Assembly (NCBI GenBank): GCA_011365025.1
Contig: RDOF01000011.1
Span: forward strand, 1-64,000
Length of the DNA: 64,000 nucleotides
Direction: 5' to 3'
Source of the DNA: Candidatus Thorarchaeota archaeon
Lineage (GTDB): Archaea > Asgardarchaeota > Thorarchaeia > Thorarchaeales > Thorarchaeaceae
Part shown: positions 20,638-63,705 of the stretch, in pieces
Layout: every line of letters begins with the position of its first letter
Numbering within the stretch: position 1 is the stretch's first letter
Notes under the pieces: generated by a model
What the model was told of the DNA's origin: nothing
Database searches by the model: none
Seen by the model: only the letters and a program-made list of their open reading frames with translations
Translations under genes and position numbers: made by a program

Positions 20638-22563
20638 CTATGTTGTTGGGTAGACCTTGTGTAGGTGATACCAGTAGTAGGTACCATACATTGGGTTCCA
20701 GGTCAGACCGTTGCCTTGCATCCATGTCCTCCAGACTCTGAACTCAGAGGGCTGGTACATGTAGATACTTGGTTGTTCGTAGGCGATGATCTCTTGTAGC
20801 TGGTTGTAGATTGCCTGCCTCGCCAATGGATCAGTTTCGCCCTTACCCTGTGCAATCAAGTCATCCGCCGTAGCGTTCTCGAAACCACTCGCGAGCATGA
20901 ATGTGCCCTGAGAGTGCACGAATGGGAAGGCGTAGTTGTCCGGATCAGCGTAGTCAGGAGCCCAACCAATGAGCCATATTGGCAGCTCATGGTTGTCCAT
21001 CTTCAAGAGCATGTTTGCCCACTCAAGGGCATTGACCCTTAGCTCAACACCAGGTTCACCATTAGTCATGGTAGCAGTGATTCCCTCCAAGTTCGTGTCC
21101 TCATGGGCCATAACCTTGGCCAGACCGTCCTTCAATAGGAGTGAGCCCTGCTCACGAATGACGTTACCTGAGTTGTAGTACAAGTCAATGTACCCGTCTA
21201 GATCATTGATGACATCTACAAAACCTGGTTCTTCCATAGCCTGGTTCCAAAACTCCACAGCTGCCGCTATGTCATACTCCTCATTCCAATATGAGGAGTT
21301 CTGACCGAACATGCCCTGCGGGATAAAGCCCTTGGCTTGGAAGCCCCATCCTCTAACGATAGCATCGATAGCTGACTGGTAGTCGAACATGTAGGCAAAG
21401 CACTTCCTCAGACCCCAATAGGCGAATGGGCTGGTAATCTCTGTCGGCGCCGATGTCCCACGGGTTATGTTCATGTCGTGGAACATGAAGGTGAAGGCCA
21501 TCAGCGTGTAGCTGAATCCTCCGGTATTGACATGGATATTCGCGTCGCTTGAGCCCAAGGTGACATTGTCCCAGATCTCATCAGCGTTGGTCGTTGGCCA
21601 ATATACATTGTCCGCCAAACCGGTTCTGAGATTGAGCAGTCTGCCAGTTGTGTCCTCATTGGTCTTATACCAAACTTCCTTGATCGAGCCTGCGTAGCTG
21701 GGTGGAGCAATACCTGCCTCAGTGGCATCAGCTCTCCAGTAGTCCTCAAAGAGAACCATGTGGATGTACTCATTTGGTCTCCACTCGTCCAACATATATG
21801 GACCAGTACCACAGGTGTGGGTCTCCATCCATGTGGATTGCCACTCACCATAGTCGTTTCCGTAGTGCTCTGTCCAGTCACCACCAACGGGGACTGAGTC
21901 ATTGCATGGGTTGGATAGTACGTAGGTTGGGCTCATGAAAGCACCAACACGATAGGTCATTGCCGCAATGAATGGGGCGAATGCCTCTTCCAGATTGAAC
22001 TGAATCTTGTAGGTATCAAGGACGACAATCGCACCGGAGTTTTCAACCCAGTCATCAAATGCGTCCTGGAACACCGCTGAACCAGTACCGTTGTCGTAGG
22101 CAGCTGCCTCAACAACCAGACCACCCTTAAGTGCTTCAATGATCATCCAAACTGGACCTGCAAGGCGGAAAGCCTTGACAGCCCGCTCGACGTTCCATTT
22201 GACAACACTAGCGTTGAATGGCGTTCCGTCATGGAAGATGACATTCTGGCGCAGGGTGATGTTGTACTGCTTATTATCCTCTGATATGACTGGCATAGAT
22301 GCCGCCAGCAGAGGTATGCTCGGTTCTGTACTAGCTGACCCAAACGGATAGTAGTATAACGTTTCATAGATATTTTCTTGTAGTCCGCCACCAAAGTTCT
22401 CGTAATTGACATGCGGGTCCATGCTTAGTGGATTGCCAATAGTTTCCACAACAAAGAAGTCCTCAGGAGTCTGAGTCGGTTGTGATAGGAAAATAAAGGC
22501 AACACCAGCACCTGCAATCACAATCACGATAACAATGACTGCGTACATCTGGTTTCTTTCCAT
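20638..22563 (-). CDS. dppA: ABC transporter substrate-binding protein, SBP_bac_5 (Dpp/Opp) family
   Basis: 641 residues. An N-terminal transmembrane helix (about 7-26) anchors the protein in the membrane, in place of a lipoprotein signal. The fold is in the normal order: N-L-D-type opening S-M-D-P-H (about 47-51), then L-R-Q-N-V-I-F-H-D-G-T-P-F near 102-114, the middle domain with tryptophan-rich strands, and the closing part with A-P-D-Y-A-D-P-D-N and a Y-N-Q-L-Q-E-I helix. It should catch peptides or similar solutes outside the cell for the permease encoded divergently at 22875-27481. GGAGG lies before the ATG but inside a strong inverted repeat (see 22568-22658). Followed by a hairpin terminator. 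The substrate cannot be told. Confidence 0.9.
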   Translation of the reverse strand: MERNQMYAVIVIVIVIAGAGVAFIFLSQPTQTPEDFFVVETIGNPLSMDPHVNYENFGGGLQENIYETLYYYPFGSASTEPSIPLLAASMPVISEDNKQYNITLRQNVIFHDGTPFNASVVKWNVERAVKAFRLAGPVWMIIEALKGGLVVEAAAYDNGTGSAVFQDAFDDWVENSGAIVVLDTYKIQFNLEEAFAPFIAAMTYRVGAFMSPTYVLSNPCNDSVPVGGDWTEHYGNDYGEWQSTWMETHTCGTGPYMLDEWRPNEYIHMVLFEDYWRADATEAGIAPPSYAGSIKEVWYKTNEDTTGRLLNLRTGLADNVYWPTTNADEIWDNVTLGSSDANIHVNTGGFSYTLMAFTFMFHDMNITRGTSAPTEITSPFAYWGLRKCFAYMFDYQSAIDAIVRGWGFQAKGFIPQGMFGQNSSYWNEEYDIAAAVEFWNQAMEEPGFVDVINDLDGYIDLYYNSGNVIREQGSLLLKDGLAKVMAHEDTNLEGITATMTNGEPGVELRVNALEWANMLLKMDNHELPIWLIGWAPDYADPDNYAFPFVHSQGTFMLASGFENATADDLIAQGKGETDPLARQAIYNQLQEIIAYEQPSIYMYQPSEFRVWRTWMQGNGLTWNPMYGTYYWYHLHKVYPTT

Positions 22564-49646: not shown

Positions 49647-50633
49647 CTAGGACAACCAGCAAGCCACGAAATGCTCTGGAGCTACCTCCCGCAGGACCGG
49701 TTCACCTTCTTGGCATCCTACTCCATATTCCTGGCAACGGGGCTTGAATCTGCAGCCTTCTGGCAAATCGATAGGCGTGGGTGTTTCTCCTGGAAGGTAT
49801 ATTCTCTCACGCTTAATGGTTGGGTCTGGAACAGGTATATTGGAAACAAGTGCTTTCGTATAAGGATGAATTGGATTCTGAATTACTATCTCCATTGGGC
49901 CCATTTCCGCAATGCGCCCAAGATACATGACAATCATATAGTCCCCAATATACCTGGCTTGGGCCAAGTCATGAGTTATGAAGATGTAGGTGAGCCCATA
50001 TTCCTTCTGGAGTTCATCCATGAGGTTCATAATCTCAGTCCTTATACTCGCGTCCAACATTGATACAGGCTCGTCTGCAATCATGAGCTCCGGTTTGAGA
50101 ATTAGGGATCTTGCAATTGCAATCCGTTGAAGCTGGCCTCCTGAGAGTTCATGAGTATACCTTGTCGCAAAATCCTCTGCCGGTATCAACCGTACATCAG
50201 TCAATGCACGAAGCACGCGTTCTCTGAGTTCGTCCTCGTCATCCACGAGATGATGGATGAGAAGTGCCTCTCCTACAAGGGTTTCGACAGGAAGTCTTGG
50301 GTCCAGCACTTCAAATGGATTCTGAAATATCATCTGCATTTTGAGTCGAGCATTTCTCAGCTCTTCCCTAGTCATTTCGTAAATATTCTGACCATGAAAC
50401 TCTGCTCTGCCTTCGTTCGGTTCGATTAGCCTGAGAATCGTTCTGGCCAGTGTTGTCTTTCCACAACCACTCTCTCCAACTATGCAAACTGAGCCTCCCT
50501 TAGGAACTTCAAAGGATACGTCGTCGACTGCCTTAACCCATCTCTTCTCTTCAAAAAAGGAGAATATTCCAGAGCGAACTGGGAACCATTTCCTGAGATG
50601 CTCCACCTTCAATATCGGTTCTGCCTGCGTCAT
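49647..50633 (-). CDS. dppF: ABC transporter ATPase, DppF/OppF type (second transporter)
   Basis: 328 residues. The ATG at 50633 overlaps the dppD stop (ATGA), which fixes the start; an upstream start in the same frame is disfavoured. Walker A G-E-S-G-C-G-K-T, Q-loop F-Q-N-P, signature L-S-G-G-Q, Walker B M-I-A-D-E-P and H-loop I-T-H-D are intact. The C-terminal tail has C-R-F-K-P-R-C and two later cysteines. Last transporter gene of the operon that begins with two binding proteins at 58.1 kb. It powers import together with DppD (50630-51607). Confidence 0.92.
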   Translation of the reverse strand: MTQAEPILKVEHLRKWFPVRSGIFSFFEEKRWVKAVDDVSFEVPKGGSVCIVGESGCGKTTLARTILRLIEPNEGRAEFHGQNIYEMTREELRNARLKMQMIFQNPFEVLDPRLPVETLVGEALLIHHLVDDEDELRERVLRALTDVRLIPAEDFATRYTHELSGGQLQRIAIARSLILKPELMIADEPVSMLDASIRTEIMNLMDELQKEYGLTYIFITHDLAQARYIGDYMIVMYLGRIAEMGPMEIVIQNPIHPYTKALVSNIPVPDPTIKRERIYLPGETPTPIDLPEGCRFKPRCQEYGVGCQEGEPVLREVAPEHFVACWLS

Positions 50634-51607
50634 GTTAATGCCTCCAAATTCAGGGTGCGGGCAAAGTGGCACCTAGCCAGATGTCCAGCTTCTATCTCTT
50701 CGAACGCGGGAAATTCCTTTGCGCATATGTCCTGAGCGTAAGGGCACCTAGGATGGAATCTGCAACCTGGTGGCGGATTCAGGAGATTCGGCGGCGAACC
50801 TGGAATGAACTCAAGCCGCCTCTTCTCGCCCTCAATACTTGGGAAGGCTCCGATGAGTTTGAAGGTGTACGGGTGTAGCGATTTCTTGAACACCTCTTCA
50901 GCTGTGCCCAACTCAACAAGGGAGCCTGCGTACATGATTCCCACTTTGTGGCAGTTCTCTGCCACAACAGAGAGATCGTGTGTTATGAACAACACTGCAA
51001 GTTCGTACTTCTCTTGTAGCTTTCGTAGCAAATCGAGGATTTTGTTTTGAACCACCACATCTAAGGCTGTTACGGGTTCATCAGCAATGATGAGCTTTGG
51101 CTCACACGCTAGCGCCTGTGCAATAATCGCTCGCTGAAGCATTCCTCCGCTAAACTCATGGGGGTAGTCACGCATTCGCTTTGGTTCCAAGCCAACCTCA
51201 TCAAAAAGGTCTGCCACTTTGGCTGTCGCCTGCTCAAGAGAGACCTCTTCCTTTTCCATCATTACCTCAGTTATCTGGTCTCCAATTCTGAGAACCGGAT
51301 TGAATGCATTCATTGCGTATTGAAACACAATCGACGCGCTTCGCCATCTCAGAGCTCTCATTTCAGGCTCGGGAAGCTTAAGCAGATCCATTCCATCGAG
51401 GCGAATTTCTCCTCCAACTATTTTCGCGTTTCTGGCAAGGATTCGCATTATGCTATAGGCTGTAGTTGTTTTGCCGCATCCGCTTTCTCCAGCGAGTCCT
51501 AGTGTTTCTTTCCTGTCAATGTCAAAGGAAACATTCTCGACGGCCCTTACCGGTTTACCGCCGAGGTAGTAGTGTGTAGTTAAATCATCAACTTCCAGCA
51601 CTGCCAT
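50630..51607 (-). CDS. dppD: ABC transporter ATPase, DppD type (second transporter)
   Basis: 325 residues, the normal size and without the helical insertion seen in the first operon. Walker A G-E-S-G-C-G-K-T, signature F-S-G-G-M, Walker B I-I-A-D-E-P and H-loop I-T-H-D are present; the Q-loop reads F-Q-Y-A rather than F-Q-D-P, a mild change. The tail C-R-F-H-P-R-C-P-Y...C...C fits an iron-sulfur site proposed for DppD proteins. The ATG lies three bases after the DppC stop, and its own stop overlaps the next ATPase start, so the operon is translationally coupled. Confidence 0.92.
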   Translation of the reverse strand: MAVLEVDDLTTHYYLGGKPVRAVENVSFDIDRKETLGLAGESGCGKTTTAYSIMRILARNAKIVGGEIRLDGMDLLKLPEPEMRALRWRSASIVFQYAMNAFNPVLRIGDQITEVMMEKEEVSLEQATAKVADLFDEVGLEPKRMRDYPHEFSGGMLQRAIIAQALACEPKLIIADEPVTALDVVVQNKILDLLRKLQEKYELAVLFITHDLSVVAENCHKVGIMYAGSLVELGTAEEVFKKSLHPYTFKLIGAFPSIEGEKRRLEFIPGSPPNLLNPPPGCRFHPRCPYAQDICAKEFPAFEEIEAGHLARCHFARTLNLEALT

Positions 51608-51610
51608 GGT

Positions 51611-53158
51611 CTATCCGCTCCTTCCTCGAAGTCTTGGATTGACAACCCTGTCTGCTGCATGACTGATGAATGCGAAGCCAAGCGTCGTCAGCATTATCAT
51701 CAATCCTGGTGGAATAATCCACCACCAGCGCCCGTTCGAAAGCGCAGCTTTCTTCTCAGCCCAATGAAGAATTATTCCCCAGCTGGGTTGTCCATGGATT
51801 TCAGTAAAGCCGAGGAATGCAATGCCAGCCTCGCTGAGGATTGCTCCAACGATTCCTAATACGACATTCGCAAGTATCAGGGGAAGTGTGTTGGGTAGTA
51901 TATGCTTTGAGAGAATGTACATATCTGAGGCACCAATCGCATGGGCGGCTTCAGTAAGGGGCCGTTCGCGTAATGACAGGGCTTCAGAGCGGACCATCCT
52001 AGCTGTTCCTGTCCAGCTGAGAATCGCGATGACTATAATGATGTTTTGAAGACCTTGCCCGAATAATACCAAGAAAATCAGCATCAGGGGTAGGGTTGGA
52101 AGGCAGAGAAAGACATCAGTGATTCTCATCAGGATACTGTCAGGAAGACCTCCGTAATACCCTGCAAAAAGGCCAACGAAGGTGCCTAGAAATACTGCCA
52201 TTACACTTGCAGTGAATCCGACTATCAGGGAGATTTGGGTCCCCCAAATCACCCGACTAAAAATGTCTCCCCCCTGATGGTTAGTTCCAAGAAGGTGCTC
52301 CCAACTTGGCGGAAGGTACCAGATATCTTGGTTGTTTATGTCTATGTATGACCAGTGGTATGGAGCAATGACGGGAGCTAGAATTCCAATGAGTACAATC
52401 GCGGCAATGAGAAAGAAGCCAACAAGGCCCATCCGGTCCTTATAGAATTGCATCCAGAAGGTTGAGATGCTCCGTCTCATGCCCCAGACCATTTTCAGTG
52501 CTCGCGGCAAAAGAATGAAGAGTGGGATGATGATGAAACAAGCCGAAACTGCTATCCATCCAAAACCAAGTGATGCGAGGACTCTACCAACCGAGTTCAT
52601 CATAATATTGGGGAGTACATCCACTCCTACCACATCTACAGTAAGGAATGATTCAAGAAGTGTCCAAAGTACAACAACTCCGGAAATCCCTGCACGATAG
52701 AGCAGAAGTTGAAAATCGGACCAAGTATCTGATCGCCTAGGAGTCAGGAAGAAGAACATAAAAGCTGCTATAAAGGCGGACGCAAGGTTCACTGTAAGTA
52801 GTAGCAGGTAGACAATGGCTACTTTCAGCAACCGTGTTGCAACCCTTCCAGGCCGTTTCTCATAGAGTGGTTTTCCAAGAACACCAATCCATAGCACTAA
52901 AACAAAGACGATCAAACCTATGATTCTAACCGACAGGCTTGTAACAAGTCCTGCAGCATAATCCAAGCCAGAGATGTCCCCCACGATGAAATTAGTCATT
53001 AAAGACATTGCTGCATCGACTACGATGACCAGCACAATGCACATTAGAATCGCTCCGCCATTTGAAACCAACTTCGCATGGAACGGCACCTCGTGAACCT
53101 CTCGAGCGGCGAACTCTGGATACTCTTTTTCGTCAAATGATTGTAAGTTGTCTGACAT
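51611..53158 (-). CDS. dppC: ABC transporter permease, DppC type, with about 230 extra N-terminal residues
   Basis: 515 residues against about 300 usually. The standard permease begins near 240 (F-Y-K-D-R-M-G-L-V-G-F-F-L), with H-L-L-G-T-N-H-Q-G-G-D-I-F near 290, the coupling segment L-T-E-A-A-H-A-I-G-A near 408 and the ending N-P-R-L-R-G-R. Residues 30-230 add about five transmembrane helices with cytoplasmic loops. The first transporter's DppC also carries extra N-terminal helices, but only four and of different sequence. GAGGCC serves as ribosome binding site before the ATG, 11 bases after DppB. The added domain may help anchor the C-terminally tethered binding proteins; this is inference. 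Confidence 0.92.
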   Translation of the reverse strand: MSDNLQSFDEKEYPEFAAREVHEVPFHAKLVSNGGAILMCIVLVIVVDAAMSLMTNFIVGDISGLDYAAGLVTSLSVRIIGLIVFVLVLWIGVLGKPLYEKRPGRVATRLLKVAIVYLLLLTVNLASAFIAAFMFFFLTPRRSDTWSDFQLLLYRAGISGVVVLWTLLESFLTVDVVGVDVLPNIMMNSVGRVLASLGFGWIAVSACFIIIPLFILLPRALKMVWGMRRSISTFWMQFYKDRMGLVGFFLIAAIVLIGILAPVIAPYHWSYIDINNQDIWYLPPSWEHLLGTNHQGGDIFSRVIWGTQISLIVGFTASVMAVFLGTFVGLFAGYYGGLPDSILMRITDVFLCLPTLPLMLIFLVLFGQGLQNIIIVIAILSWTGTARMVRSEALSLRERPLTEAAHAIGASDMYILSKHILPNTLPLILANVVLGIVGAILSEAGIAFLGFTEIHGQPSWGIILHWAEKKAALSNGRWWWIIPPGLMIMLTTLGFAFISHAADRVVNPRLRGRSG

Positions 53159-53169
53159 TCTTTGGCCTC

Positions 53170-54162
53170 CTAGTATCGAATTCTTGGATCAAGGTAGAGA
53201 TACAATAGATCCGCAACGAAATTCGAAGCCACTGTTATCGTTGCAAGGAATAGGAATATTCCTTGGAGCACAGGGTAGTCATTTGCAAGTACGGCGTCAT
53301 AGGTAAGAAGACCTAAACCTTCCCAGCTAAAAACATACTCCGTTATCATTGCGCCGCTGATAAGATATGGCAGGTTCACTGCAATTACACTGACCATGGG
53401 GAGCATGGCGTTACGCATTGCATGCCGATACAGCATTGTGCGTTCTTTCAACCCTTTCGCCTCAGCAGCAAGCATGTAGTCCTGAGTGAAAACGTCCAGG
53501 ACCGAATCCCGCATGATGAGATAAAACCCTCCTATGAATGAGAGAGTAAGTACGATACAGGGTCCTATCATATGCCAACCATAGTCGAGGATGTAGATCA
53601 GCAGATTAGGATGAATATACCCTCTTGTTATGGTTCCAGCTATTGGTATGAGATTGAATTGAAATCCTAGGAACAGAATCATTAGCAGCCCTATCCAAAA
53701 GACCGGTATTGAATATGTCACCAAGAAAAACACGGTGGAACCGGTATCAGTTTTGGTTCCTCTTCGAGCTGCCGCAATTACTCCGAATACCATTCCGATG
53801 ATTATAGAGAAGATCAGGGCACCTCCCATTAGCACGAATGTGTTTGTGAAGCGCCGGTCAAAAATGGCATCCAATACATCCAAGCCATCCTGATCAAATG
53901 ACTCACCAAACTCGCCACGAAAGAGATTCAAGAGATAGAGCCCATACTGAACAAGTAGAGGTTCATCAAGCCCAAAGGTTTCACGAATCCTAATGACTGT
54001 GTCAGGAGGCATATTTTCCCCGATTAGGGCGGCTGCTGGGTCTCCAGGCATTACTCTAAAAATGAAGAAATTGAGAGTCACGATAAGAAACCAAATCAGG
54101 ATTGTTTGTCCCAAGCGCTGCAGGATGTATCGCTTTGTTCCAATGGACTTCCTCACCGACAT
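53170..54162 (-). CDS. dppB: ABC transporter permease, DppB type (second transporter)
   Basis: 330 residues. R-Y-I-L-Q-R-L-G-Q-T-I-L-I-W opens the first helix; R-V-M-P-G-D-P-A-A and F-G-L-D-E-P-L-L-V-Q-Y-G-L-Y-L follow as in DppB; the coupling segment Y-M-L-A-A-E-A-K-G-L sits near 230 and the end is Y-L-Y-L-D-P-R-I-R-Y. Six transmembrane helices. It lies 132 bases after the second binding-protein gene, across a hairpin terminator, so permease genes are probably made at a lower level than the binding proteins by read-through. Confidence 0.93.
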   Translation of the reverse strand: MSVRKSIGTKRYILQRLGQTILIWFLIVTLNFFIFRVMPGDPAAALIGENMPPDTVIRIRETFGLDEPLLVQYGLYLLNLFRGEFGESFDQDGLDVLDAIFDRRFTNTFVLMGGALIFSIIIGMVFGVIAAARRGTKTDTGSTVFFLVTYSIPVFWIGLLMILFLGFQFNLIPIAGTITRGYIHPNLLIYILDYGWHMIGPCIVLTLSFIGGFYLIMRDSVLDVFTQDYMLAAEAKGLKERTMLYRHAMRNAMLPMVSVIAVNLPYLISGAMITEYVFSWEGLGLLTYDAVLANDYPVLQGIFLFLATITVASNFVADLLYLYLDPRIRY

Positions 54163-54251
54163 TCATCGTCATCTCCGAATAATATTGTCCATTATTTCGT
54201 GCTAAACTGCAATTTAAAGGGTATCGAACTACGCTTCTTGCATGCACTAAC

Positions 54252-54284
54252 AAAAAAAGTAGGAGGGGGTAGCTATTCTACCCC
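54252..54284 (-). terminator. Hairpin plus T7 between binding protein and permease genes
   Basis: GGGGTAG (54266-54272) pairs with CTACCCC (54278-54284) with a five-base loop. On the minus strand the stem is followed by a short TCCTAC and seven T residues (54258-54252). It begins ten bases after the stop of the binding-protein gene and could act as an attenuator for the downstream permease and ATPase genes. Confidence 0.7.
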
Positions 54285-54294
54285 TTTCATTGTA

Positions 54295-56052
54295 CTATTT
54301 CTTCTTCATCACAAAGTAGGTAATTACAATGCCAATCACAAGAGCTCCAGCGCCAATTGCTGCTATCAGTATGAGATCAGGTGCTGCACCAGGCGGTGCT
54401 GCGCCTGGGAACTCCCTGATGCCGTCATTGTCAACATCAACATAGCCTGCAGCGTCAAGAATGTCATTTGCCGTATCTACATCGTATTCGTAGAAGACTC
54501 CCTCAGGGCTGTAGAAGCTTGGGAAGTACTCTGCGGGAATGCTGCTATTGGTTGCTGTACCAAAGCCTAGCCTGCCAATGTTGATTAGAGTCTGCCTGTT
54601 GATTGCGTAGGCTATAGCCCTTCTAACATTGACGTCATCAAGACCAGGAACGGTCATGTTGAAGCCGACAACGTAATCCCATTGTGAGGTGACTCCAGTG
54701 ACCAGGTCAAGCTCTGGGGCATTTAGCACAGTGCTGACATACGGCCCAAAGACCTCATAGCGTTCAGTGTCCGCTGTGCCCTGCCTCATGGCAAGGATCC
54801 TAGCATCCTGACCTCTAACAACGTCGATTCTAACGGTCTCGATGTTTGGCAGTTGCCCAACATATGGATTGTCTGGACCCCACCAGTCATCATTTCTGAC
54901 GACTGTCGTGTACTCAGTGGCAACTCTGTCGCTGAAGACGTACGGCCCCGATCCGATATGATAGTCTGGGTCTGATGGGTCATTCCACCTTTCGTCATCT
55001 GCAGCGACACCGTCATGGGTGTGCTCAGGAAGGATGTACAGCTCTCCAACTGTTTGTAGTGCAAAGGCAAAAGGCTGGTCAAAGTTCATGACGAGGGTAT
55101 TTCCATCGATTTCGGTGTCGGTCATATGCTGCATCAGTGCCCAACCAAGTGCATCTTCTGGTGCATTCTTGTAGTAGTGCATTGTGAAGTTGACATCGTT
55201 AACGGTCAGTGGATTACCATCATGCCATTGAACGCCACTCCTAATGGTGAAGTTTAGCTGAAGCCCATTTGAGGCCGCAGAAAATGATTCCGCCAGCCAA
55301 GGAATGGGATCCAGGTTATTGTCGTAGGAGATTAGGGTGTCGTACACAAGCATGTCATACCAATGTGACCTCTCGCTTCTGTAGAACATCGGATTTAGCT
55401 CACCAATGTCTGAAGGATATGCCATTACGAAGGTGTAGTCACCACTCGTGTAGGTTGTGTCATACATGAAGATCATAGTCTGCGGATTATGTGATGTGAA
55501 GACGCCACCTGGCTTAAGCGTGTAGTTAGTCCATTCCGCTCTGATTGCATGGGTGTCATCTGATAGGAATAGGGGAATATAGGGTATATTCTCTCTAATA
55601 ACTCGCTGTGCCGTTGCTGCGGCCGTGGCCATTGTTGCTGGCGTAGCCGCTAGGAACGCATCAAGGGCCGCGTCAACAGTCGCATTATCCAAACCGTAGC
55701 AGTTGTCACCCCAGTCAATTATGTTCTCGGAATGACAGCGCCACCAGATATGATCTGGGACACTACCATAGCCGTGGCTCATCTCATATACAGCGAATGT
55801 CCTCGGCTCTTGGTAGAGGCCTTCATACATTGGATCGTCGTCCTTTATGACGACGTCAAAATTAATGCCTATATCATCAAGTAGGGTTCTTAGACCCGTG
55901 CCGGTGTCCACTGAAATGTCATCCCAAGAAAGCACCCAACACTCATACGAGAGTTCAGGGGTAACATCAAGGGTTGCCACCGCAGGTACCGCGGCATATG
56001 GGAGGACTAAGAAGACTGCTAGAAACAGGCATGTTAGGTGTTTCTTTTTCAC
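54295..56052 (-). CDS. Substrate-binding protein of SBP_bac_5 family in circularly permuted order, C-terminal anchor
   Basis: 585 residues. Signal peptide 1-27; residues about 33-185 match the part that normally ends SBP_bac_5 proteins: a helix and strand L-R-T-L-L-D-D-I-G-I-N-F-D-V-V, then Y-G-L-D-N-A-T-V-D-A-A-L and A-Q-R-V-I-R-E-N-I-P-Y-I-P-L-F. Residues about 203-550 then match the usual beginning and middle: M-A-Y-P-S-D-I-G-E-L-N-P-M-F, F-T-I-R-S-G-V-Q-W-H-D-G-N-P-L-T, and finally D-V-R-R-A-I-A-Y-A-I-N-R and A-N-D-I-L-D-A-A-G-Y, after which a normal protein would continue into the part found here at the front. It ends with a Pro/Ala linker and one transmembrane helix (about 558-580) plus K-K-K. 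GTG start after GGAGGAG. It should deliver peptides or similar to DppBCDF downstream. Confidence 0.85.
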   Translation of the reverse strand: MKKKHLTCLFLAVFLVLPYAAVPAVATLDVTPELSYECWVLSWDDISVDTGTGLRTLLDDIGINFDVVIKDDDPMYEGLYQEPRTFAVYEMSHGYGSVPDHIWWRCHSENIIDWGDNCYGLDNATVDAALDAFLAATPATMATAAATAQRVIRENIPYIPLFLSDDTHAIRAEWTNYTLKPGGVFTSHNPQTMIFMYDTTYTSGDYTFVMAYPSDIGELNPMFYRSERSHWYDMLVYDTLISYDNNLDPIPWLAESFSAASNGLQLNFTIRSGVQWHDGNPLTVNDVNFTMHYYKNAPEDALGWALMQHMTDTEIDGNTLVMNFDQPFAFALQTVGELYILPEHTHDGVAADDERWNDPSDPDYHIGSGPYVFSDRVATEYTTVVRNDDWWGPDNPYVGQLPNIETVRIDVVRGQDARILAMRQGTADTERYEVFGPYVSTVLNAPELDLVTGVTSQWDYVVGFNMTVPGLDDVNVRRAIAYAINRQTLINIGRLGFGTATNSSIPAEYFPSFYSPEGVFYEYDVDTANDILDAAGYVDVDNDGIREFPGAAPPGAAPDLILIAAIGAGALVIGIVITYFVMKKK

Positions 56053-56236
56053 AGTAGATCTCTCCTCCTGCGATTATTAGGAGATACATACCTCCTAAAC
56101 GCAGAAAACAGATACAACAGTACTGTTAGCTCCTAATGAAGGCTCCGTTCCTTATAGGCATTTCATTTTGAGTAAGTCAGTATTGATTAAATCTTGGCTG
56201 GTTGCCGAACCAGAGCTCGGCAATTGCCGTTAATAC
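56053..56236 (-). repeat. Duplicated 5' region of the first tandem binding-protein gene
   Basis: This stretch matches 58131-58313 closely: the ribosome binding site GGAGGAGAGATCTACT, a leader with ACATACCTCCTAAACGCAG, GGCTCCGTTCC and the TTGCCG element (plus-strand spellings). It shows that the promoter and leader were copied along with the gene. A TATA-like ATTTAATC sits near 56189 on the minus strand. The part 56237-56343 is not shared and has an inverted repeat at 56234-56256. Confidence 0.75.
56202..56229 (-). promoter_or_regulatory. TTGCCG/CGGCAA operator-like element
   Basis: TTGCCGA (56202-56208) pairs with TCGGCAA (56217-56223), and CGGCAATTGCCG (56218-56229) is a perfect palindrome that reuses the second half. 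The same arrangement, base for base, occurs before the other tandem gene at 58279-58306. On the minus strand it lies just upstream of the TATA-like sequence, where archaeal regulators often bind. Confidence 0.55.
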
Positions 56237-56256
56237 TATGAATTCGAATCATAGTA
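56234..56256. promoter_or_regulatory. Inverted repeat in the region between the tandem binding-protein genes
   Basis: TACTATGA (56234-56241) and TCATAGTA (56249-56256) are perfectly complementary around ATTCGAA. It lies next to the TTGCCG element but is absent from the other copy. It could be a second operator or a 3'-end structure of the upstream gene's transcript. Confidence 0.35.
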
Positions 56257-56343
56257 ACATTGTCCAACATAAAAACCAGACCGTAGAGTGAAGCGTATCG
56301 AACTGCCCTTGATGCATTCCGATTTTCAAGTGAGAATGGGAAA

Positions 56344-56360
56344 GGGTAGTATGACTACCC
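56344..56360 (-). terminator. Hairpin after the upstream tandem binding-protein gene
   Basis: GGGTAGT (56344-56350) pairs with ACTACCC (56354-56360) around a three-base loop, 12 bases after the stop. Only TTT follows it on the minus strand, so it would be a weaker terminator than its counterpart at 54252-54284. Confidence 0.45.
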
Positions 56361-56372
56361 CCTTCAATTGAA

Positions 56373-58130
56373 CTACTTTTTCTTCATTAGGAAGTAGGTT
56401 ATGACTACACCTATAACGAGAGCTCCGGCGCCAATGGTAGCTATTAAGAGGAGGTCGGGTGCAACTCCCGGAGGCGCTGCCCCTGGAAACTCCCTGATGC
56501 CGTCATTGTCAACATCAATATAGCCAGCTGCATCGAGAATGCTGTTCGCAATGGTCACATTGTACTCGTAGAAGACTCCTTCTGAGCTGTAATAGGATGG
56601 GAAGAACTCGTGCGGAATGGTGCTGTTTATAGCTGTACCAAAGCCCAATCGGCCGATGTTAATAAGGGTCTCTCGGTCCATGGCATAACACATGGCTCTC
56701 CTGACATCAAGATCATTTAGACCGGGGACAGTCATGTTGAAGCCGACCACGTAGTACCACTGAGAGGTGACTCCGGTGACTAGGTCGAGCTCTGGCGCGT
56801 CAAGCACGGTGCTGACGTATGGTCCAAAGACTTCGTAACGCTCAGTGTCAGCCGTACCTTGCCTCATGGCGAGGATACGAGCGTCCTGAGATCTGATGAC
56901 ATCGATTCTGACTGTTTCAATGTTTGGCAGTTGGCCCACATACGGATTGTCCGGACCCCACCAGTCATCATTTCTGACCACTGTGGTGTACTCCATAGCC
57001 ACTCTGTCGCTAAAGATGTACGGCCCTGAACCAATATGGTTGTCTGGGTCTGAGGGGTCGTTCCACCGTTCGTCATCTGCAGCAATACCAGTATGGGTGT
57101 GCTCAGGAAGAATGTACAGCTCTCCAAGGTAGTTAAGGGCGAATGCAGATGGCTGATTCAAATTCACTACTATGGTATTGCCAACTATTTCAGTGCTTTC
57201 CAAGGTCTGCATAAATGTCCAATAGATTGCGTCCTCAGGAGCGTTCTTGTAGTAGTGCAGTGTGAAGTTGACATCGTTAACGGTCAGTGGATTCCCATCA
57301 TGCCAAAGGGCACCACTCCGAATGGTGAAATTCAACTGAAGCCCATCGTCAGCCACATCGAATGATTCTGCAAGCCATGGGATTGGATTCAGATTATTGT
57401 CGTAGGAGATTAGAGAGTCATACACAAGCATGTCATACCAATGCGATCTCTCACTCCTATAGAACATCGGGTTCAGCTCCCCTATGTCTGAAGGATATGC
57501 CATGACGAACGAGTACTCTCCACCCGTATATGTTGCGTCCTCCATGTAGATCATGGTTTGGGGATTGATTGATGTGAACACGCCGCCAGGTTTCAGGGTG
57601 TAGTTTGTCCATTCGGCCCTGATTGCGTGGGTGTCATCAGAGAGAAACAGTGGTATATACGGGATGTTTTCCATTAGCACACTTTGAACCGTAGCAGACC
57701 TCTCATCAATATTGGCCGGAGTGGCTGCTAAGAAATCATCCAACGCTTGGTCCACGGTTGCATTATCGAGCCCATAGCAGTTGAAGCCCCAATTGACAAT
57801 ATTGTCAGAGTGCGCAGACTCCCAGACATGACTTGGCACACTACCATAGCCATGGCTCATCTCGTATACAGCGAAAGCCCTCGGCTCTTGGTAGATGCCT
57901 TCGTACATTGGATCGTCGTCCTTCATGACGACGTCAAAATTAATACCTATGTCATCTAGTAGAGTTCTTAGGCCCGTGCCGGTGTCCACTGAAATGTCAT
58001 CCCAGGACAGTACCCAGCACTCATACGAGAGTTCAGGGGTAACATCAAGGGTTGCCACTGCGGGCATTGCGGCGTATGGGAGGACTAAGAAGACTGCTAG
58101 AAACAGGCATGTTAGGTGTTTCTTTTTCAC
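56373..58130 (-). CDS. Substrate-binding protein of SBP_bac_5 family in circularly permuted order, tandem paralogue
   Basis: 585 residues from the GTG at 58130, the same length as the neighbour; the frame is open further upstream, but the ribosome binding site GGAGGAG and the exact match to the neighbour's start fix the GTG. The domain order is the same permuted one: signal peptide 1-27, the normally C-terminal segment (about 33-185), then the normally N-terminal and middle parts (about 203-550), then a linker and one transmembrane helix. Differences from the neighbour cluster in the middle of the protein (for example A-L-W-H-D-G for V-Q-W-H-D-G, and Y-W-T-F-M-Q-T-L for G-W-A-L-M-Q-H-M), so the two may prefer different ligands for the same permease. 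Confidence 0.85.
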   Translation of the reverse strand: MKKKHLTCLFLAVFLVLPYAAMPAVATLDVTPELSYECWVLSWDDISVDTGTGLRTLLDDIGINFDVVMKDDDPMYEGIYQEPRAFAVYEMSHGYGSVPSHVWESAHSDNIVNWGFNCYGLDNATVDQALDDFLAATPANIDERSATVQSVLMENIPYIPLFLSDDTHAIRAEWTNYTLKPGGVFTSINPQTMIYMEDATYTGGEYSFVMAYPSDIGELNPMFYRSERSHWYDMLVYDSLISYDNNLNPIPWLAESFDVADDGLQLNFTIRSGALWHDGNPLTVNDVNFTLHYYKNAPEDAIYWTFMQTLESTEIVGNTIVVNLNQPSAFALNYLGELYILPEHTHTGIAADDERWNDPSDPDNHIGSGPYIFSDRVAMEYTTVVRNDDWWGPDNPYVGQLPNIETVRIDVIRSQDARILAMRQGTADTERYEVFGPYVSTVLDAPELDLVTGVTSQWYYVVGFNMTVPGLNDLDVRRAMCYAMDRETLINIGRLGFGTAINSTIPHEFFPSYYSSEGVFYEYNVTIANSILDAAGYIDVDNDGIREFPGAAPPGVAPDLLLIATIGAGALVIGVVITYFLMKKK

Positions 58131-58313
58131 AGTAGATCTCTCCTCCTTTGTTAATGGGAAATACATACCTCCTAAACGCAGAAAACAGATACAACAGTAG
58201 TCTTAGCTCCTAATGAAGGCTCCGTTCCTCGCAGGCATTTCATCTTGAGCAAGTTGATATCGACTATATCTGGGCTTGTTGCCGAACCAGAGCTCGGCAA
58301 TTGCCGTTAATAC
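58131..58313 (-). repeat. Duplicated 5' region of the second tandem binding-protein gene
   Basis: Close copy of 56053-56236. The leader hairpin TTAGGAG/CTCCTAA that can form in the other copy is not conserved here. A TATA-like GATATAG sits near 58267 on the minus strand. The far end of this repeat lies inside the 3' end of the next gene (58264-59031). Confidence 0.75.
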
Positions 58314-59031
58314 TACAAATGCGTGTAAGGCCCGAGGCGTTCTTCAAGGCCGCAGAAAGCGAGGCGGCTCCGGGACTTTCGAGATGGAGATCTCTCTCTT
58401 CGCTGGATTCATTGTCAATGAATACCGCCGACACGGTACCAACATATACTCTCTCTCCCAGGGTGAAGTCCTTCACCATGACCGAGTTTGGAACATTCAT
58501 CACTATTGAAGTCGCCAGCAGTAATCCGTGGTCAGGCTGCCTCCTCTCCATTACAGCCGCATCTTTTCTTAGGCCGCCTGGCGTACGAGGCAGAAGCACA
58601 CCAGCTGCGGCTCTTCTGTCTGCTTGAATCCTGCGAACCTCTGGTTCCAATTCGGCCAGCCTTTCTTGGGCATCTAGCCGTTTCTGAACCAGATTCTGTA
58701 TTAGTTGCAGAAGACCATCTGAATCGGAGGCCTCCTCTTTGAGACCATCGCCTTTGGTGGCAGCAATGGATGCATAATTCGGCCTCCAAAGAAGCAAGTC
58801 TTCATTGGACTCCAGTTCAGGAATCGCGAGCGACTCATCAACCACGGAGGCATTAGACCCTTGTCCCTCCGAGGTTATCCACTCCACGATTCTGAAGGGC
58901 CTCCAGTAAAAGCTCGATATTCTAAGCTCCTCAATTGGTTCCTTCTTCAAAATGCCCTTTGTTCTGATTTTCCCTTCCAGGAACAATGCGATTTTTCCCT
59001 GTCCGATTGTAATTCCTTCAAGGTAGGCCAT
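58264..59031 (-). CDS. Unrecognised protein with central coiled coil
   Basis: 255 residues. The first 55 residues look like beta strands (I-T-I-G-Q-G-K-I-A-L-F-L-E-G-K-I); an acidic linker follows; about 108-150 form a charged helix or coiled coil (L-V-Q-K-R-L-D-A-Q-E-R-L-A-E-L); the remainder is beta-rich (L-G-E-R-V-Y-V-G-T-V-S-A-V-F-I). AAGGA precedes the ATG. The last 15 or so residues are encoded by the duplicated promoter region of the binding-protein gene, so the natural C-terminus may be accidental. No family recognised. Divergent from the M20 dipeptidase. Confidence 0.65.
   Translation of the reverse strand: MAYLEGITIGQGKIALFLEGKIRTKGILKKEPIEELRISSFYWRPFRIVEWITSEGQGSNASVVDESLAIPELESNEDLLLWRPNYASIAATKGDGLKEEASDSDGLLQLIQNLVQKRLDAQERLAELEPEVRRIQADRRAAAGVLLPRTPGGLRKDAAVMERRQPDHGLLLATSIVMNVPNSVMVKDFTLGERVYVGTVSAVFIDNESSEERDLHLESPGAASLSAALKNASGLTRICSINGNCRALVRQQAQI
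58279..58306 (-). promoter_or_regulatory. TTGCCG/CGGCAA operator-like element, second copy
   Basis: TTGCCGA (58279-58285), TCGGCAA (58294-58300) and TTGCCG (58301-58306) repeat the element found at 56202-56229. Here it also encodes the last residues of the upstream gene, which may therefore have been extended into a regulatory region. Confidence 0.55.
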
Positions 59032-59139: not shown

Positions 59140-60477
59140 ATGGAAGAAGTGATTCATTTCCTGGAAACGACTACTGATGAAGCCATCAAAACACTTGACA
59201 GAATCTGCCGAATTCCAACGGTTGCGGCCAAGAATCAGGGATTGGAAGAAACGGCTGATTTCCTAATGCGGCTTCTGGATAGCATTGGCGTGAAACCCGG
59301 TTTGCATCAAACCTCTGGTGCTCCTGTTGTTACTGGACTCCTAGATGTAGGAGCTGAGAAGACGCTTCTTTTTTACGACCATTACGATGTTCAGCCTGCT
59401 GAACCTCTTGAGCTCTGGGAGACCCCACCTTTCGAGCCTAATATCCGAGATGGCCGACTATATGCAAGAGGCGTTGCTGATAACAAGGGAGATACAATAT
59501 CCCGCATCTGGACAGTAAAGGCATTTCAGGAGACCGGCACAGAACTACCGGTGAACATCAAGTTTGTCATCGAAGGAGAAGAGGAGATTGGCAGCATTAA
59601 TCTCCCCGATTACACCGCAAAGAACAAGGACTTCCTCAAGGCAGATGGAGGAATTTGGGAGTTCGGTGGCGAAGGCTATGATGGCGTGCAAGAAGCATGG
59701 TTAGGACTCAAGGGGATTTTCTACGTCCAATTGGAGGTTGAACTGCTCTCGCGAAATGTGCATTCAAGTCTTGGGTGCGCGTTGCCTTCTGCCCCGCATG
59801 TCCTTTCTTGGGCGTTGAGCTCCTTGAAGGATAGGAATCACAGAGTTCTCATTGATGGATTCTACGATGGCATAAAGCCGTTGACTAATGCAGAGTGGGC
59901 GGCAATAGACCTGATAGACCTTCATGAGGATGATATGAAGGAGAGCTACTCTGTAAGCGAATTCTTGAATGGAATGACTGGTAAGGAATTGAAAGAAGCC
60001 TACTACAATGCACCAACGTGTACCATTTGTGGTCTCACTAGCGGCTATCAAGGCGAAGGCTCGATGACAGTACTTCCTGCAAAAGCTTCTGCGAAGGTTG
60101 ACTTTCGACTTGTAGAGGGAATGAATCCAGAGGACATAAGGAGCAAACTACGGTTTCATCTGGACCGCCATGGCTTTCCTGGCGTGAAGTTTGCATGGTA
60201 TGAAGGATATCCTGCGGCAAAGACGCCGGTGGACCATCCTTTTGTTGACGTGGTTAGACGTGCAAACGCCAAGGTCTTCGGAGATCTTAACGTTCATGTA
60301 ACGAGTCCCGGCTCTGGACCACTCTATCTCTTCAAGGACCATGTACCAATGGTGTCCATCGGTGTGAGCGATTTCAACTCAAAGGGACATTCTCCGAATG
60401 AGAGTATCAAACTCGACAACTTTGAGAAAGGGATGAAGCGCTTGACCTATGTTATCGACGAAATGGGCAGGTCATAG
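59140..60477 (+). CDS. M20-family dipeptidase (carnosinase/CNDP-like)
   Basis: 445 residues. Zinc ligands and catalytic residues can be placed: H in Y-D-H-Y-D-V-Q-P with the following Asp, D in G-V-A-D-N-K-G-D, the catalytic Glu pair in E-G-E-E-E-I-G-S, and H in S-K-G-H-S-P-N-E near the end. Residues about 185-330 form the lid domain (with G-L-T-S-G-Y-Q-G-E-G). These enzymes cut dipeptides or N-acyl amino acids in the cytoplasm. Next to a peptide importer and near other hydrolases it would complete peptide use. Convergent with a DUF4139 gene with 51 bases between stops. Confidence 0.93.
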   Translation: MEEVIHFLETTTDEAIKTLDRICRIPTVAAKNQGLEETADFLMRLLDSIGVKPGLHQTSGAPVVTGLLDVGAEKTLLFYDHYDVQPAEPLELWETPPFEPNIRDGRLYARGVADNKGDTISRIWTVKAFQETGTELPVNIKFVIEGEEEIGSINLPDYTAKNKDFLKADGGIWEFGGEGYDGVQEAWLGLKGIFYVQLEVELLSRNVHSSLGCALPSAPHVLSWALSSLKDRNHRVLIDGFYDGIKPLTNAEWAAIDLIDLHEDDMKESYSVSEFLNGMTGKELKEAYYNAPTCTICGLTSGYQGEGSMTVLPAKASAKVDFRLVEGMNPEDIRSKLRFHLDRHGFPGVKFAWYEGYPAAKTPVDHPFVDVVRRANAKVFGDLNVHVTSPGSGPLYLFKDHVPMVSIGVSDFNSKGHSPNESIKLDNFEKGMKRLTYVIDEMGRS

Positions 60478-60528: not shown

Positions 60529-62118
60529 CTATGGAAGCGGTGGGGAGATTGTAACATCCTTTTCCCAGGAAACCTCGAACTCGTACTCAACCTCCACCTT
60601 CTTCTGTGGTTCGATTGCTAATTCCCATTCAATGACTCCGAGTTCCATTTTCTTGTAGGAAATTGCTGGAGGTTTGAGTTCCACTTTGATCTTCTCAGAG
60701 TTGGAGTGCGGAATCCTATCAACAACACGGACATTCACAGGCTTCTTGGCGTAGCTAGATAATTCCAACCTATACTTGTAGCCCCGTTTTCGCTTTCCGC
60801 CAACCAAGCCTGCCTTCTCAGTATCCTTCTCAACCAGCTTCTTCTCGGCCTTGACATCATAGGCAATTCTGGTACCAAGCCTGAACTTCTCCCTCGGGGC
60901 TATAAGATGAACGGAGGTCTCGCCCAAAAAATCGCCAGCAGCAAACACCTTCACGCTGCCAGGAAGTATAACGGAATCCCCGTTTGTAATCTCGTCCTGC
61001 GCAACAACTTCTGGCATGGCATAGGCATTCCAATAGTAAAGGCGTCTGGAATCAAAGGCCTCCTCTGTGAGAGTTACTGGCTGAGGTTCTTCACCAGAAA
61101 AGAGCGTTATCTTGCCAGGTACTTCGTAGATGACGGTCCCACTTAGGGTTTCGGAGGCTGTGGCGTAGGACTGCTCCATGATTGGTTCCGGTTCATAGGC
61201 ATCTTCAGCCATCTCGAAGGCCTCAGGCTCTTCATCGCGGTCGTATGCCCTGGCATCAGCCATCCCTTCAATTCCGGTTCCGAATGCTCCGGTGGTCGGA
61301 TATGCCGACATAATATCAACGTAGAAAGGACTTGATTTTACGGCTTCAACAGGCCTTGCAGAAGATGTCGAAACGACCAGGCCTACATCTTTCCAATCTT
61401 CAAGGGTTTGATTTGAAACCATTGCAATCCTCTTCACTGCTGATTTCTCATCGCCAATATCGACATCATAGGTGGGGGTCCAACCGGCGCCTCCGAGTTG
61501 GTAGGTCACATCCAGTTCAATCTTCGTGCTTTCCTTGACATCCAAAAGAACCTTCACTAGGGTGGTTGTTTCAACCCTTCTTTCGCCTCGCACGCGGCTA
61601 ATGTTGTTCTGAACAGCTTGTATCTCTGAGTTAACTCCATCAATCTCCTCCTGAAGGGCTCTGAGCTTCTTCTTTGCATCCAGTGCAATCTTGGAGGAAG
61701 CGCCGTCCATCTCCTCCAGCTGCTCCAACGATGATTCCCCTGCTGCAAACCATTTCCCAAATTCACCAGAAAACTGCCCTAGAATTGCGTTCAGGCTTGT
61801 AAGCCTAGACTGCTGATATTCGATTTTATCTTCAACTTGGCCCCTCTGTTTCTCAAGCTCCTCCAGCTTTGCAAGGAGTTCCTTTAGGTTTCCTTCAGGT
61901 TCAAAGGTAGCTGATTTTGTGGACACATCAATTCCCTTCAGTAACGCAGCTCCTCTGCCTTTAACTCTGAAACTATCGTTCTGTGCGTATTGTGATATTC
62001 CATCGATGAGAACTGTCTGCTCTCCCGCCACGAGCTCTGTCGACCCAATTCGTGTGACTCTTGCGCCGTCTCGGAACACTGTTACGTTGGCAATCTTGGT
62101 CTTCATTTCTTTGGACAT
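60529..62118 (-). CDS. DUF4139 (MuiA-like) protein
   Basis: 529 residues in the order of the DUF4140/DUF4139 family: an N-terminal beta domain (V-F-R-D-G-A-R-V-T-R near 14-23), a long coiled coil (about 75-180), then a beta-rich DUF4139 domain (Y-Q-L-G-G-A-G-W-T-P-T-Y-D-V near 205-220) ending with I-S-P-P-L-P. An acidic low-complexity stretch (about 285-320) interrupts the domain. No signal peptide, so it should be cytoplasmic. The family was first described as a mucoidy inhibitor in bacteria, and its biochemical role is not known. GGAGG precedes the ATG. The homologous gene upstream is only 12 bases away, so the two are cotranscribed and may form a heteromer. Confidence 0.85.
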   Translation of the reverse strand: MSKEMKTKIANVTVFRDGARVTRIGSTELVAGEQTVLIDGISQYAQNDSFRVKGRGAALLKGIDVSTKSATFEPEGNLKELLAKLEELEKQRGQVEDKIEYQQSRLTSLNAILGQFSGEFGKWFAAGESSLEQLEEMDGASSKIALDAKKKLRALQEEIDGVNSEIQAVQNNISRVRGERRVETTTLVKVLLDVKESTKIELDVTYQLGGAGWTPTYDVDIGDEKSAVKRIAMVSNQTLEDWKDVGLVVSTSSARPVEAVKSSPFYVDIMSAYPTTGAFGTGIEGMADARAYDRDEEPEAFEMAEDAYEPEPIMEQSYATASETLSGTVIYEVPGKITLFSGEEPQPVTLTEEAFDSRRLYYWNAYAMPEVVAQDEITNGDSVILPGSVKVFAAGDFLGETSVHLIAPREKFRLGTRIAYDVKAEKKLVEKDTEKAGLVGGKRKRGYKYRLELSSYAKKPVNVRVVDRIPHSNSEKIKVELKPPAISYKKMELGVIEWELAIEPQKKVEVEYEFEVSWEKDVTISPPLP

Positions 62119-62130
62119 TCTGTTTGCCTC

Positions 62131-63705
62131 CTACGGAAGTGGTGGTGAAATCACTGTGTTGCGGTCCCATTGGACTTCGTATTCGTATTCAATCTGCTTC
62201 TTGGCCTTAGGTTCCAAATCAAATAGCCATTCCATTACGCCCAGTTCATGCTTCTCTGCCCCAATCTTCTCCCAATCAATCTTGACTTCTATGGAGGGGT
62301 TCAAGCTATGGGGTATCCTGTCCACAACATGCATTTTCGCCGACCTCTTTGAAAAGCTCTCAATTTCCAACCGATACTTGTATGACCTGCGGAGCTTGGC
62401 CCGGGTGATTCCTGCTTTCTCCGCCTCGCGGTCTACCATTTTCTTGGTTGCCTTCAAGTCATAGGCCGTTCTTGTGCCCAGTTTGAATTTCTCCCTGGGC
62501 GAAACTAAATCAACGGTAGTCTTCCCAATGAAATCCCCTTCCGAATAAACAGCTGCTTTCCCAGGAAGGAGTACTGTATCAGCGTTTGTTATTTCATCCT
62601 GCGCCACAACTTCTGACATTCCATCAGTGTACCAGTAGTGGATTGTTGTTGACTCGAAGTCCTCCTCGATCAGTGTCACAGGATGACGTTCATTGTCAAA
62701 GGGAATAGTCACTGGCTTTGGAAGCTCATAGACAGATATGCCCGATACCGATTCTGAGGCTTCTGCGAATTCTTCTTCCATCTCAGGCGGCGGAGGCGGT
62801 GCCCCTGGTGCCATTGATGGTACGGCCATAGGCTTTGCAGCTTCTTTTACCATCCTGCCCATACTCCTACTCCTTTCCGCACGTACAGGTCGTGGGACAT
62901 AAACTGAGATGATGAATGGTGAGCCCTCGATTGCCTGAACTGGTTGAGCAGTGGCAGTTGAAACAACTAACTTGACCTTATTCCACGCTTCTCTTGTTCT
63001 ATTCGATATCATAGCGATCCTTCTGACAATAGCCTTTCCGGGCGGCACATCAATGTCATAAGTCGGGCTCCAATTTGCACTTCCAACTTGGTAGGTAATA
63101 TCAAGCTCAAGAGCGGCTTTCTGCTTGGCTTCCACCGAGATCTCCACTTCATAGTAGGTTTCTGTTCGTCGCGTTCCCTCAATTTTGCCAATGTTCTGCC
63201 TGGTGGCCTGAAGCTGCTCCTCAATCTCTTCGAGCTTCTCCTGAAGCTTTCGCAGCTTCGTCTTGGCATTCGCATGCATTTTCTCTGTCTTGGCATCGAG
63301 CGCTGAGAGCTGCTCCATGTTGGCTTCCTTCGCCGCATAGAGCATGCCGAAGTGCCCTGAAAAATCTGCCATAACTCCTCCAATTACCTCGAGCTTGTTC
63401 TGCTCCAATTCAATCTCATCGTTTACACCCTTGTGCTCGCGTTCTAGCTTCTTGAGCTCCTCGTAAAGCGGTTTGAGGTCATCTTTGGGTTCAAAGACGC
63501 GATGGGTTCTTCTCACATCAATCTTGGAAAGAGTTGCTGGTCCTCTTCCTTTTACTCGGAAGCTGTCCTCCTGTGCATAACTTGTTATCCCAGTAACAAC
63601 AACTCTCTGTGGACCCGTGTCCAGGCTTGTCTTTCCGGATCGTGTGACTCTGGCTCCATCACGAAAGACAGCAACTGCTGTGATGTCGGTTTTCATCTCA
63701 TTCAA
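62131..63705 (-). CDS. DUF4139 (MuiA-like) protein, tandem paralogue
   Basis: 524 residues with the same plan as the next gene: V-F-R-D-G-A-R-V-T-R at about 13-22, a coiled coil (about 72-190), the DUF4139 domain with Y-Q-V-G-S-A-N-W-S-P-T-Y-D-I, and the ending I-S-P-P-L-P. The variable stretch here is Pro-rich (A-P-G-A-P-P-P-P-P-E-M-E-E-E) rather than acidic. TTG start at 63705 with GGGAG nine bases upstream; an ATG three codons later is possible. The conserved coiled coil and shared ends suggest that the pair arose by duplication and works as a complex. No function can be assigned. Confidence 0.85.
   Translation of the reverse strand: MNEMKTDITAVAVFRDGARVTRSGKTSLDTGPQRVVVTGITSYAQEDSFRVKGRGPATLSKIDVRRTHRVFEPKDDLKPLYEELKKLEREHKGVNDEIELEQNKLEVIGGVMADFSGHFGMLYAAKEANMEQLSALDAKTEKMHANAKTKLRKLQEKLEEIEEQLQATRQNIGKIEGTRRTETYYEVEISVEAKQKAALELDITYQVGSANWSPTYDIDVPPGKAIVRRIAMISNRTREAWNKVKLVVSTATAQPVQAIEGSPFIISVYVPRPVRAERSRSMGRMVKEAAKPMAVPSMAPGAPPPPPEMEEEFAEASESVSGISVYELPKPVTIPFDNERHPVTLIEEDFESTTIHYWYTDGMSEVVAQDEITNADTVLLPGKAAVYSEGDFIGKTTVDLVSPREKFKLGTRTAYDLKATKKMVDREAEKAGITRAKLRRSYKYRLEIESFSKRSAKMHVVDRIPHSLNPSIEVKIDWEKIGAEKHELGVMEWLFDLEPKAKKQIEYEYEVQWDRNTVISPPLP

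Follow-up and report, generated by a model that had tools for sequence, protein, structure and literature searches.

The window analysed here, a 64,000-nucleotide stretch of contig RDOF01000011.1 (assembly GCA_011365025.1, positions 1 to 64,000) from a Candidatus Thorarchaeota archaeon, encodes on its minus strand two tandem substrate-binding proteins (SBPs) of 585 aa each, P0002 (copy 1, 56373-58130) and P0001 (copy 2, 54295-56052). The best explanation as a whole, to which we give a probability of about 90%, is that these are membrane-tethered, circularly permuted SBPs of a Dpp/Opp-type ATP-binding cassette (ABC) importer, with a permutation that is recurrent and has probably been reversed. 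Both proteins consist of a signal peptide, a segment B that is normally the last ~165 residues of the family, a segment A that is normally the first ~345, a short linker, and a membrane helix. An initial annotation had proposed from the sequence that both proteins are circular permutants of the SBP_bac_5 fold; the lengths and the order of the segments it quoted were confirmed, and the permutation itself was borne out by sequence, profile, synteny, and structure model.

The open frame of P0002 reaches over 56373-58166 (597 residues), and a GTG at 58130 gives a protein of the same length as P0001, which also starts at GTG. The two proteins were 84% identical. In the 585-residue numbering, segment B covers residues 29-205 and carries IGINFDVV, DNATVD, and ENIPYIPLF, and segment A covers 206-550 and carries SDIGELNP and WHDGNPLT; the chain ends in AAGY..DNDGIREFPG and then the membrane helix. 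For P0002, the signal peptide was placed at 58047-58130 (model helix 7-32 in the 597-residue numbering). It is followed directly by segment B at 57516-58046, which corresponds to the last ~165-175 residues of family-5 SBPs (by segment BLAST, synteny, identity, and the B profile), by segment A at 56481-57515, the counterpart of their N-terminal ~345 residues (Pfam, PDB matches, and segment BLAST), and by the linker, membrane helix (model helix 572-596), and stop codon at 56373-56480. The same parts of P0001 lie at 55969-56052 (signal peptide, from sequence), 55438-55968 (B, from segment BLAST and synteny), 54403-55437 (A, from Pfam, segment BLAST, and synteny), and 54295-54402 (linker, helix, and stop codon, from sequence). 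A tandem duplication of 2.04 kb, extending in all over 54217-58323 on the minus strand (units 58323-56291 and 56246-54217, DNA identity 79.7%), doubled the permuted SBP gene. The same event duplicated the final codons of U255, the gene upstream, and their copy now sits between the two SBP genes.

In Pfam, both proteins exceeded the gathering cut-off for SBP_bac_5 (PF00496) alone, with scores of 199.2 and 202.5 bits where 32.4 are required, and neither protein belongs to a cluster B sugar-binding family. The match covered only residues 249-551 of P0001 and 261-565 of P0002 (597-residue numbering), corresponding to profile positions 2-288 of 368, and the ~200 N-terminal residues had no Pfam match of their own. 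A PDB search with P0002 matched 99 solved sequences, and in all 60 of those listed the best stretch lay at residue 208 or later, that is, in A only; the best matches paired residues ~220-565 with chain positions ~7-370. The structure 4oet gave a second weak stretch, P0002 46-173 against 331-457, at the place expected for the continuation of a permuted chain; its score of 1.8 bits is not significant by itself. A profile built from the B segments of eight permuted proteins was compared with the PDB at E values up to 1. Thirteen of the 15 listed chains were family-5 SBPs, each matched C-terminally, and the other two were chance-level matches to aspartate carbamoyltransferase. The best B-profile match was 1xoc 359-506 (E 1.4e-8), a protein whose A part occupies 36-357.

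The nearest normal-order relatives of the permuted pair are P0021 and P0020, which matched P0002 at 242/341 (71%) and 234/341 (69%) identical residues in A and at 105/151 (70%) and 107/151 (71%) in B. Both segments are thus homologous to one single-chain relative, P0021, in swapped order; the two proteins depart from the usual A-then-B order of the SBP_bac_5 family, and homology still places them there. Segment BLAST over 122 proteins found 91 with A-B and 30 with B-A (a count that includes P0001 twice, under two ids), and one, P0003, had no match at 1e-5. This last protein, encoded at 20638 in the window, has the normal order, as the initial annotation had stated. The structure prediction that the annotation had proposed as a check gave a confident model of the permuted protein (pTM, the predicted template modelling score, 0.81), and the models agreed in secondary structure; this comparison used secondary structure and matched ranges, as the structure aligner keeps to chain order. 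Membership in the family-5 fold with all parts present is supported by the match of the B profile to the C-terminal region of solved family-5 proteins, by the agreement in secondary structure, and by the confident model.

An unrelated N-terminal domain fused to a complete normal SBP, the outcome that the initial annotation had set against its own proposal, would fit the Pfam annotation of the A part only. It is nevertheless very improbable and was excluded: what remains beside B in the permuted proteins and their model, namely A, corresponds to no more than about the first two thirds of solved family-5 proteins, the absent C-terminal portion is the one that B matches, and both parts are shared with normal-order relatives at 69-71% identity. 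An assembly or gene-calling artefact is scarcely credible, given the two intact copies in the window and the same order in other genomes (loci L029, L030, and L087) as well as in the 30 of 122 proteins, which come from several sources.

Both chain orders were found in the same operon in related genomes. A search of genome contigs with P0002 returned two loci, the Thorarchaeota contig (L001) and a Devosia locus (25% identity, over A only). In the Asgard class reached from L001, 14 of 47 genomes matched P0002 at 1e-50, and the operons were compared in regions fetched for these 14 (with L022 for G035). Dpp/Opp-type permeases and ATPases are encoded downstream of both permuted SBPs in the window, namely those of the DppB (53170-54162), DppC (51611-53158, 515 aa), DppD (50630-51607), and DppF (49647-50672) types, all on the minus strand and assigned by Pfam (BPD_transp_1 for DppB) and synteny. 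Directly upstream lies U255 (58264-59031, minus strand), an unassigned family placed by synteny, which holds this position in permuted and normal-order operons alike (27-38% identity); its Pfam scan gave no significant match (best E 0.069). An M20-family peptidase (59140-60477, plus strand; Pfam and synteny) follows as a frequent neighbour. The arrangement U255, SBP, DppB, DppC, DppD, DppF was kept in 13 of the 14 class genomes as far as contigs reach. U255 adjoined the Dpp SBP in all 11 class-mate operons whose contig extends that far (those of G009 and G025 stop short), and the peptidase adjoined U255 in nine of the 11; it was outside the fetched stretch in G030 and G040 and in two pieces in G033. 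The SBP in this operon was of normal order in seven class-mates (G001, G022, G025, G028, G030, G031, and G033) and, by position beside U255 or DppB, in G021, G026, and G035, where the gene is cut by the contig end. It was permuted in the window, in G018 and G040, and by position also in G009. The fourteenth genome, G007, held a normal-order copy, and the operon neighbours were all absent from the 20 kb that were fetched. Two genomes outside the class, G111 and G113, showed U255, a permuted SBP, and DppB-C-D-F. The search for the same order in other Asgard genomes, suggested initially, was therefore positive in G018, G040, G111, and G113.

The distribution of chain orders was investigated with searches using P0002, P0081, and the L092 protein, which gave 227, 969, and 4992 matches; the best 120 of each were used. 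A and B profiles classified 306 proteins (297 from the search lists and the window, nine from loci) in a sample biased by the queries: 235 were A-B, 62 were B-A (termed cp1), six were A2-B-A1 (termed cp2; A185-335, B, A1-185), two were A-B with A in two pieces (one of them P0003), and one, L089, had A only, its open frame beginning inside B. The cp1 order occurred in Asgard archaea and Thermoproteota, by source names in Baldrarchaeia (P0179), Thermoprotei (P0186), Thermoproteota (P0190), and Desulfurococcaceae (P0208). P0195 had 33 matches at 1e-40 in 16 of the 29 genomes of the phylum to which G342 belongs, and of the 20 fetched, cp1 was present in G342 and G404 and normal order in 18; a G413 match spanning both segments (42-520) was left out of the classification. 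In cp2 the breakpoint lies near A185, behind NPNYWR or a similar motif. When the cp2 protein P0238 was compared with the PDB (60 of 103 sequences, best stretch of each), either its front matched a later part of the chains or its end matched an early part. P0238 had matches at 1e-20 in 60 of 227 Asgard genomes, not necessarily all cp2, and many of these genomes held several matches. Of the loci fetched, 20 of 20 in 20 genomes (L129-L148) showed the cp2 order, 19 by rule and L132 with a slightly longer A1 match; a 336-aa open frame in L147, labelled normal by rule and cut by the end of the stretch, was not counted. Single genomes can hold different orders, as in G040 (cp1 and cp2) and G001 (normal order and cp2). 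At L107 (2387-6433), cp2 lies in a 1349-aa frame with a long C-terminal part that by eye contains repeats.

Phylogenetic trees indicated that the order has changed repeatedly. A carefully built tree of 49 rows, selected from 182, had well supported branches that forced at least three order changes, and a single clade of all permuted rows was rejected by the approximately unbiased test (p-AU 4.5e-56); two partial groupings of permuted rows, g1+g2 (p 0.011) and g2+g3 (p 7.5e-51), were rejected as well. A second careful tree, of 68 rows chosen from 303, took its root from three normal-order proteins of bacterial type. The first branches in its 52-row clade were three permuted lineages, with support of 100/97 or better, and parsimony gave a permuted ancestor for that clade. 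For the three orders, the tree needs about 10 changes if change is reversible (8-12 in 200 bootstraps); it includes ten long rows, and deep positions, that of P0231 for example, are uncertain. Within the 52 rows, a placement of all normal-order rows on one side, and with it a single cp1 clade, was rejected (p-AU 5.5e-7). Trees of A only and B only each contained the Thor group, the 760-residue group, and the 52-row clade, and in both trees these groups mixed the two orders. The clearest late event separates P0129 (permuted) from P0160 (normal), which are identical at 34/40 positions in the signal peptide, 312/345 in A, 130/151 in B, and 177/201 in the tail. P0129, P0133, and P0135 share an identical B-A linker, and a single clade of the four permuted 760-type rows was not rejected (p 0.11), though the 68-row tree splits them.

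The direction of change in the window-type operon was approached through a tree of DppB and DppC from 17 operons, which needed one order change. Rooted on four distant permuted operons, it nested the normal-order operons inside permuted ones (90/88). Because of this placement, the permuted order is probably the older state in this operon and the normal order of the class-mates a reversion; this is the least certain step of the analysis, and it runs counter to the change from normal to permuted assumed in the initial annotation. Of the rows in the DppB+DppC tree, two are less than 40% filled and one is very long; for L031 and L022, the order was deduced from position.

Several points weigh against this account of recurrent and reversed permutation. 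Each structure model was built from 28 alignment rows. No A-B-A-B or B-A-B intermediate occurred among the 306 classified proteins, a weak point given that the search omits chains whose length is more than 1.75 times that of the query. Inside the Thor group the A-only and B-only trees disagree in detail, and neither separates the two orders cleanly: the A-only tree joins P0020 and P0021 to permuted rows, and the B-only tree joins permuted P0025 to normal ones. A single clade of the Thor permuted rows has p 0.52, the Thor normal-order rows form one clade with support of only 72/35, and a quick tree of 90 rows placed P0020 beside P0001 and P0002. The direction, moreover, depends on distant outgroups, one 90/88 branch, two position-inferred operons, and parsimony. 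The permutation may instead have arisen many times, always from normal to permuted at the same loop and never back. We regard such a history as less likely than one with reversal, yet as a real possibility: the fold might favour this particular loop, the P0129 group arose late within a clade of normal order, and 15 events suffice with gains only (11-16 in 200 bootstraps). The higher count than in the reversible case, the permuted lineages at the base of the 52-row clade, and the nesting in the DppB+DppC tree argue for reversal. It is unlikely that an old permuted and an old normal gene coexist and that gene conversion has made their halves alike, so that few permutations are needed. The somewhat similar B-A linkers of P0129 and P0081 and the presence of different orders in one genome (G040) would fit this, yet the signal peptide and long tail of P0129 match P0160 at 85 and 88% though adjoining different segments, and at the same position in orthologous operons either the one order or the other is found.

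The swap in chain order falls at a single loop, which lies between a helix with the end AAGY..DGIREFPG and a strand beginning at about ELSFxLWVLSWD; judging from homology and the model, the chain should still fold as the normal two-lobe clam. In the OppA domain scheme, lobe I holds both chain ends and lobe II is an insert. On that scheme the break would lie in lobe II, so that lobe I would become the inserted continuous part and lobe II the split part; the chain would begin and end on lobe II, which would thereby carry the signal peptide as well as the membrane helix. The expectation in the initial annotation that the anchor leaves from another face would hold accordingly, as the helix would depart from lobe II instead of lobe I through a ~10-residue linker. 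The linker is AAPPGVAPD in P0002 and SGAVTTPPAGVD in the normal-order P0021, a connection so short that the geometry should depend on where the anchor sits. The scoop motif of DppB is contacted by both DppA lobes in E. coli DppABCDF (PMC12136057), and either tether could therefore serve if docking faces are kept. The permuted SBPs would bind a peptide-like ligand, as suggested by the Dpp-type operon and the adjoining M20 peptidase, and would pass it to the same DppBCDF transporter, since the same operon works with normal-order proteins in relatives; the predicted function is peptide-type import.

The swap probably came about by a tandem duplication of the segments followed by loss of the outer pieces, and it would have recurred in the family at the same point, with the normal order of the class-mates probably a return from the permuted state. 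Of the two main models for circular permutation, one is permutation by duplication, in which a tandem fusion sheds its outer parts (PMC3320104); that paper gives this route for saposin/swaposin and DNA methyltransferases. An origin by tandem fusion is plausible here as well; the duplication in the window shows that the SBP gene does duplicate in tandem, with both copies already permuted. Unlike those cases as they are presented in that text, both orders here occupy the same operon in related genomes, the chain keeps a signal peptide at one end and a membrane helix at the other, and the rearrangement has recurred and has probably been undone.

The window proteins resemble DppA, OppA, AppA, and NikA/NikZ (family 5, cluster C) in Pfam family, modelled fold, and operon partners DppB, DppC, DppD, and DppF; they differ in being B-A instead of A-B and in that both ends would lie in lobe II. 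A natural circularly permuted binding protein is TpMglB-2 (Tp0684), proposed as 'Type Ic / Cluster Bc', which like the window proteins is tethered, in its case by lipid, and still binds ligand (PMC4990184). Unlike them, it belongs to a cluster B sugar-binding family with a rearranged N lobe, and its permuted part is only 13% identical to the EcMglB counterpart; a normal-order orthologue in the same operon is not mentioned in the available portions of PMC4990184. Among the open-licence papers listed, which for two of the searches were the best 12 of 452 and 15 of 42, none mentions a permuted Dpp, Opp, or family-5 binding protein in the title or the opening lines of the abstract. The main texts of PMC7997004, on Asgard transporters, and PMC11237513, on archaeal fusions, contain no words beginning 'permut', and PMC3281007 contains neither 'periplasmic' nor 'binding protein'.

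Newly seen here are the recurrence of cp1 in Asgard archaea and Thermoproteota, not confined to one clade, and the second permutant, cp2, in Asgard archaea. To our knowledge, natural circular permutations have mostly been described as isolated, ancient events that set distant proteins apart. In the present family the two orders persist in relatives 69-90% identical per segment and in orthologous operons with the same transporter, which makes the route, the reversibility, and the functional effect of the rearrangement directly testable. We lean towards the view that chain order in archaeal family-5 SBPs is labile, with the same operon gene permuted and permuted back at one loop, cp2 having founded a large Asgard family, and single genomes carrying two orders. 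If so, each order would tether the clam at another point, a natural experiment on the role of the anchor point in docking to the same transporter.

Further observations concern related proteins and neighbouring genes. P0129, P0131, P0133, and P0135 are permuted members of an SBP family of ~760 residues, with a repeat-containing tail (Ig-like by eye) before the membrane helix. The ~760-residue proteins were considered as B-A-B intermediates and rejected, as they are A-B or B-A plus this tail. P0231 (535 aa), a distant B-A protein, by eye ends without a C-terminal membrane helix and is possibly a soluble permuted SBP outside archaea. In the window, the DppC-type permease has an N-terminal extension of ~230 residues ahead of its OppC_N match. 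Beyond the M20 peptidase, 60529-62118 and 62131-63705 encode a tandem pair of paralogues, 47% identical, which adjoins the peptidase in six class-mate loci too.

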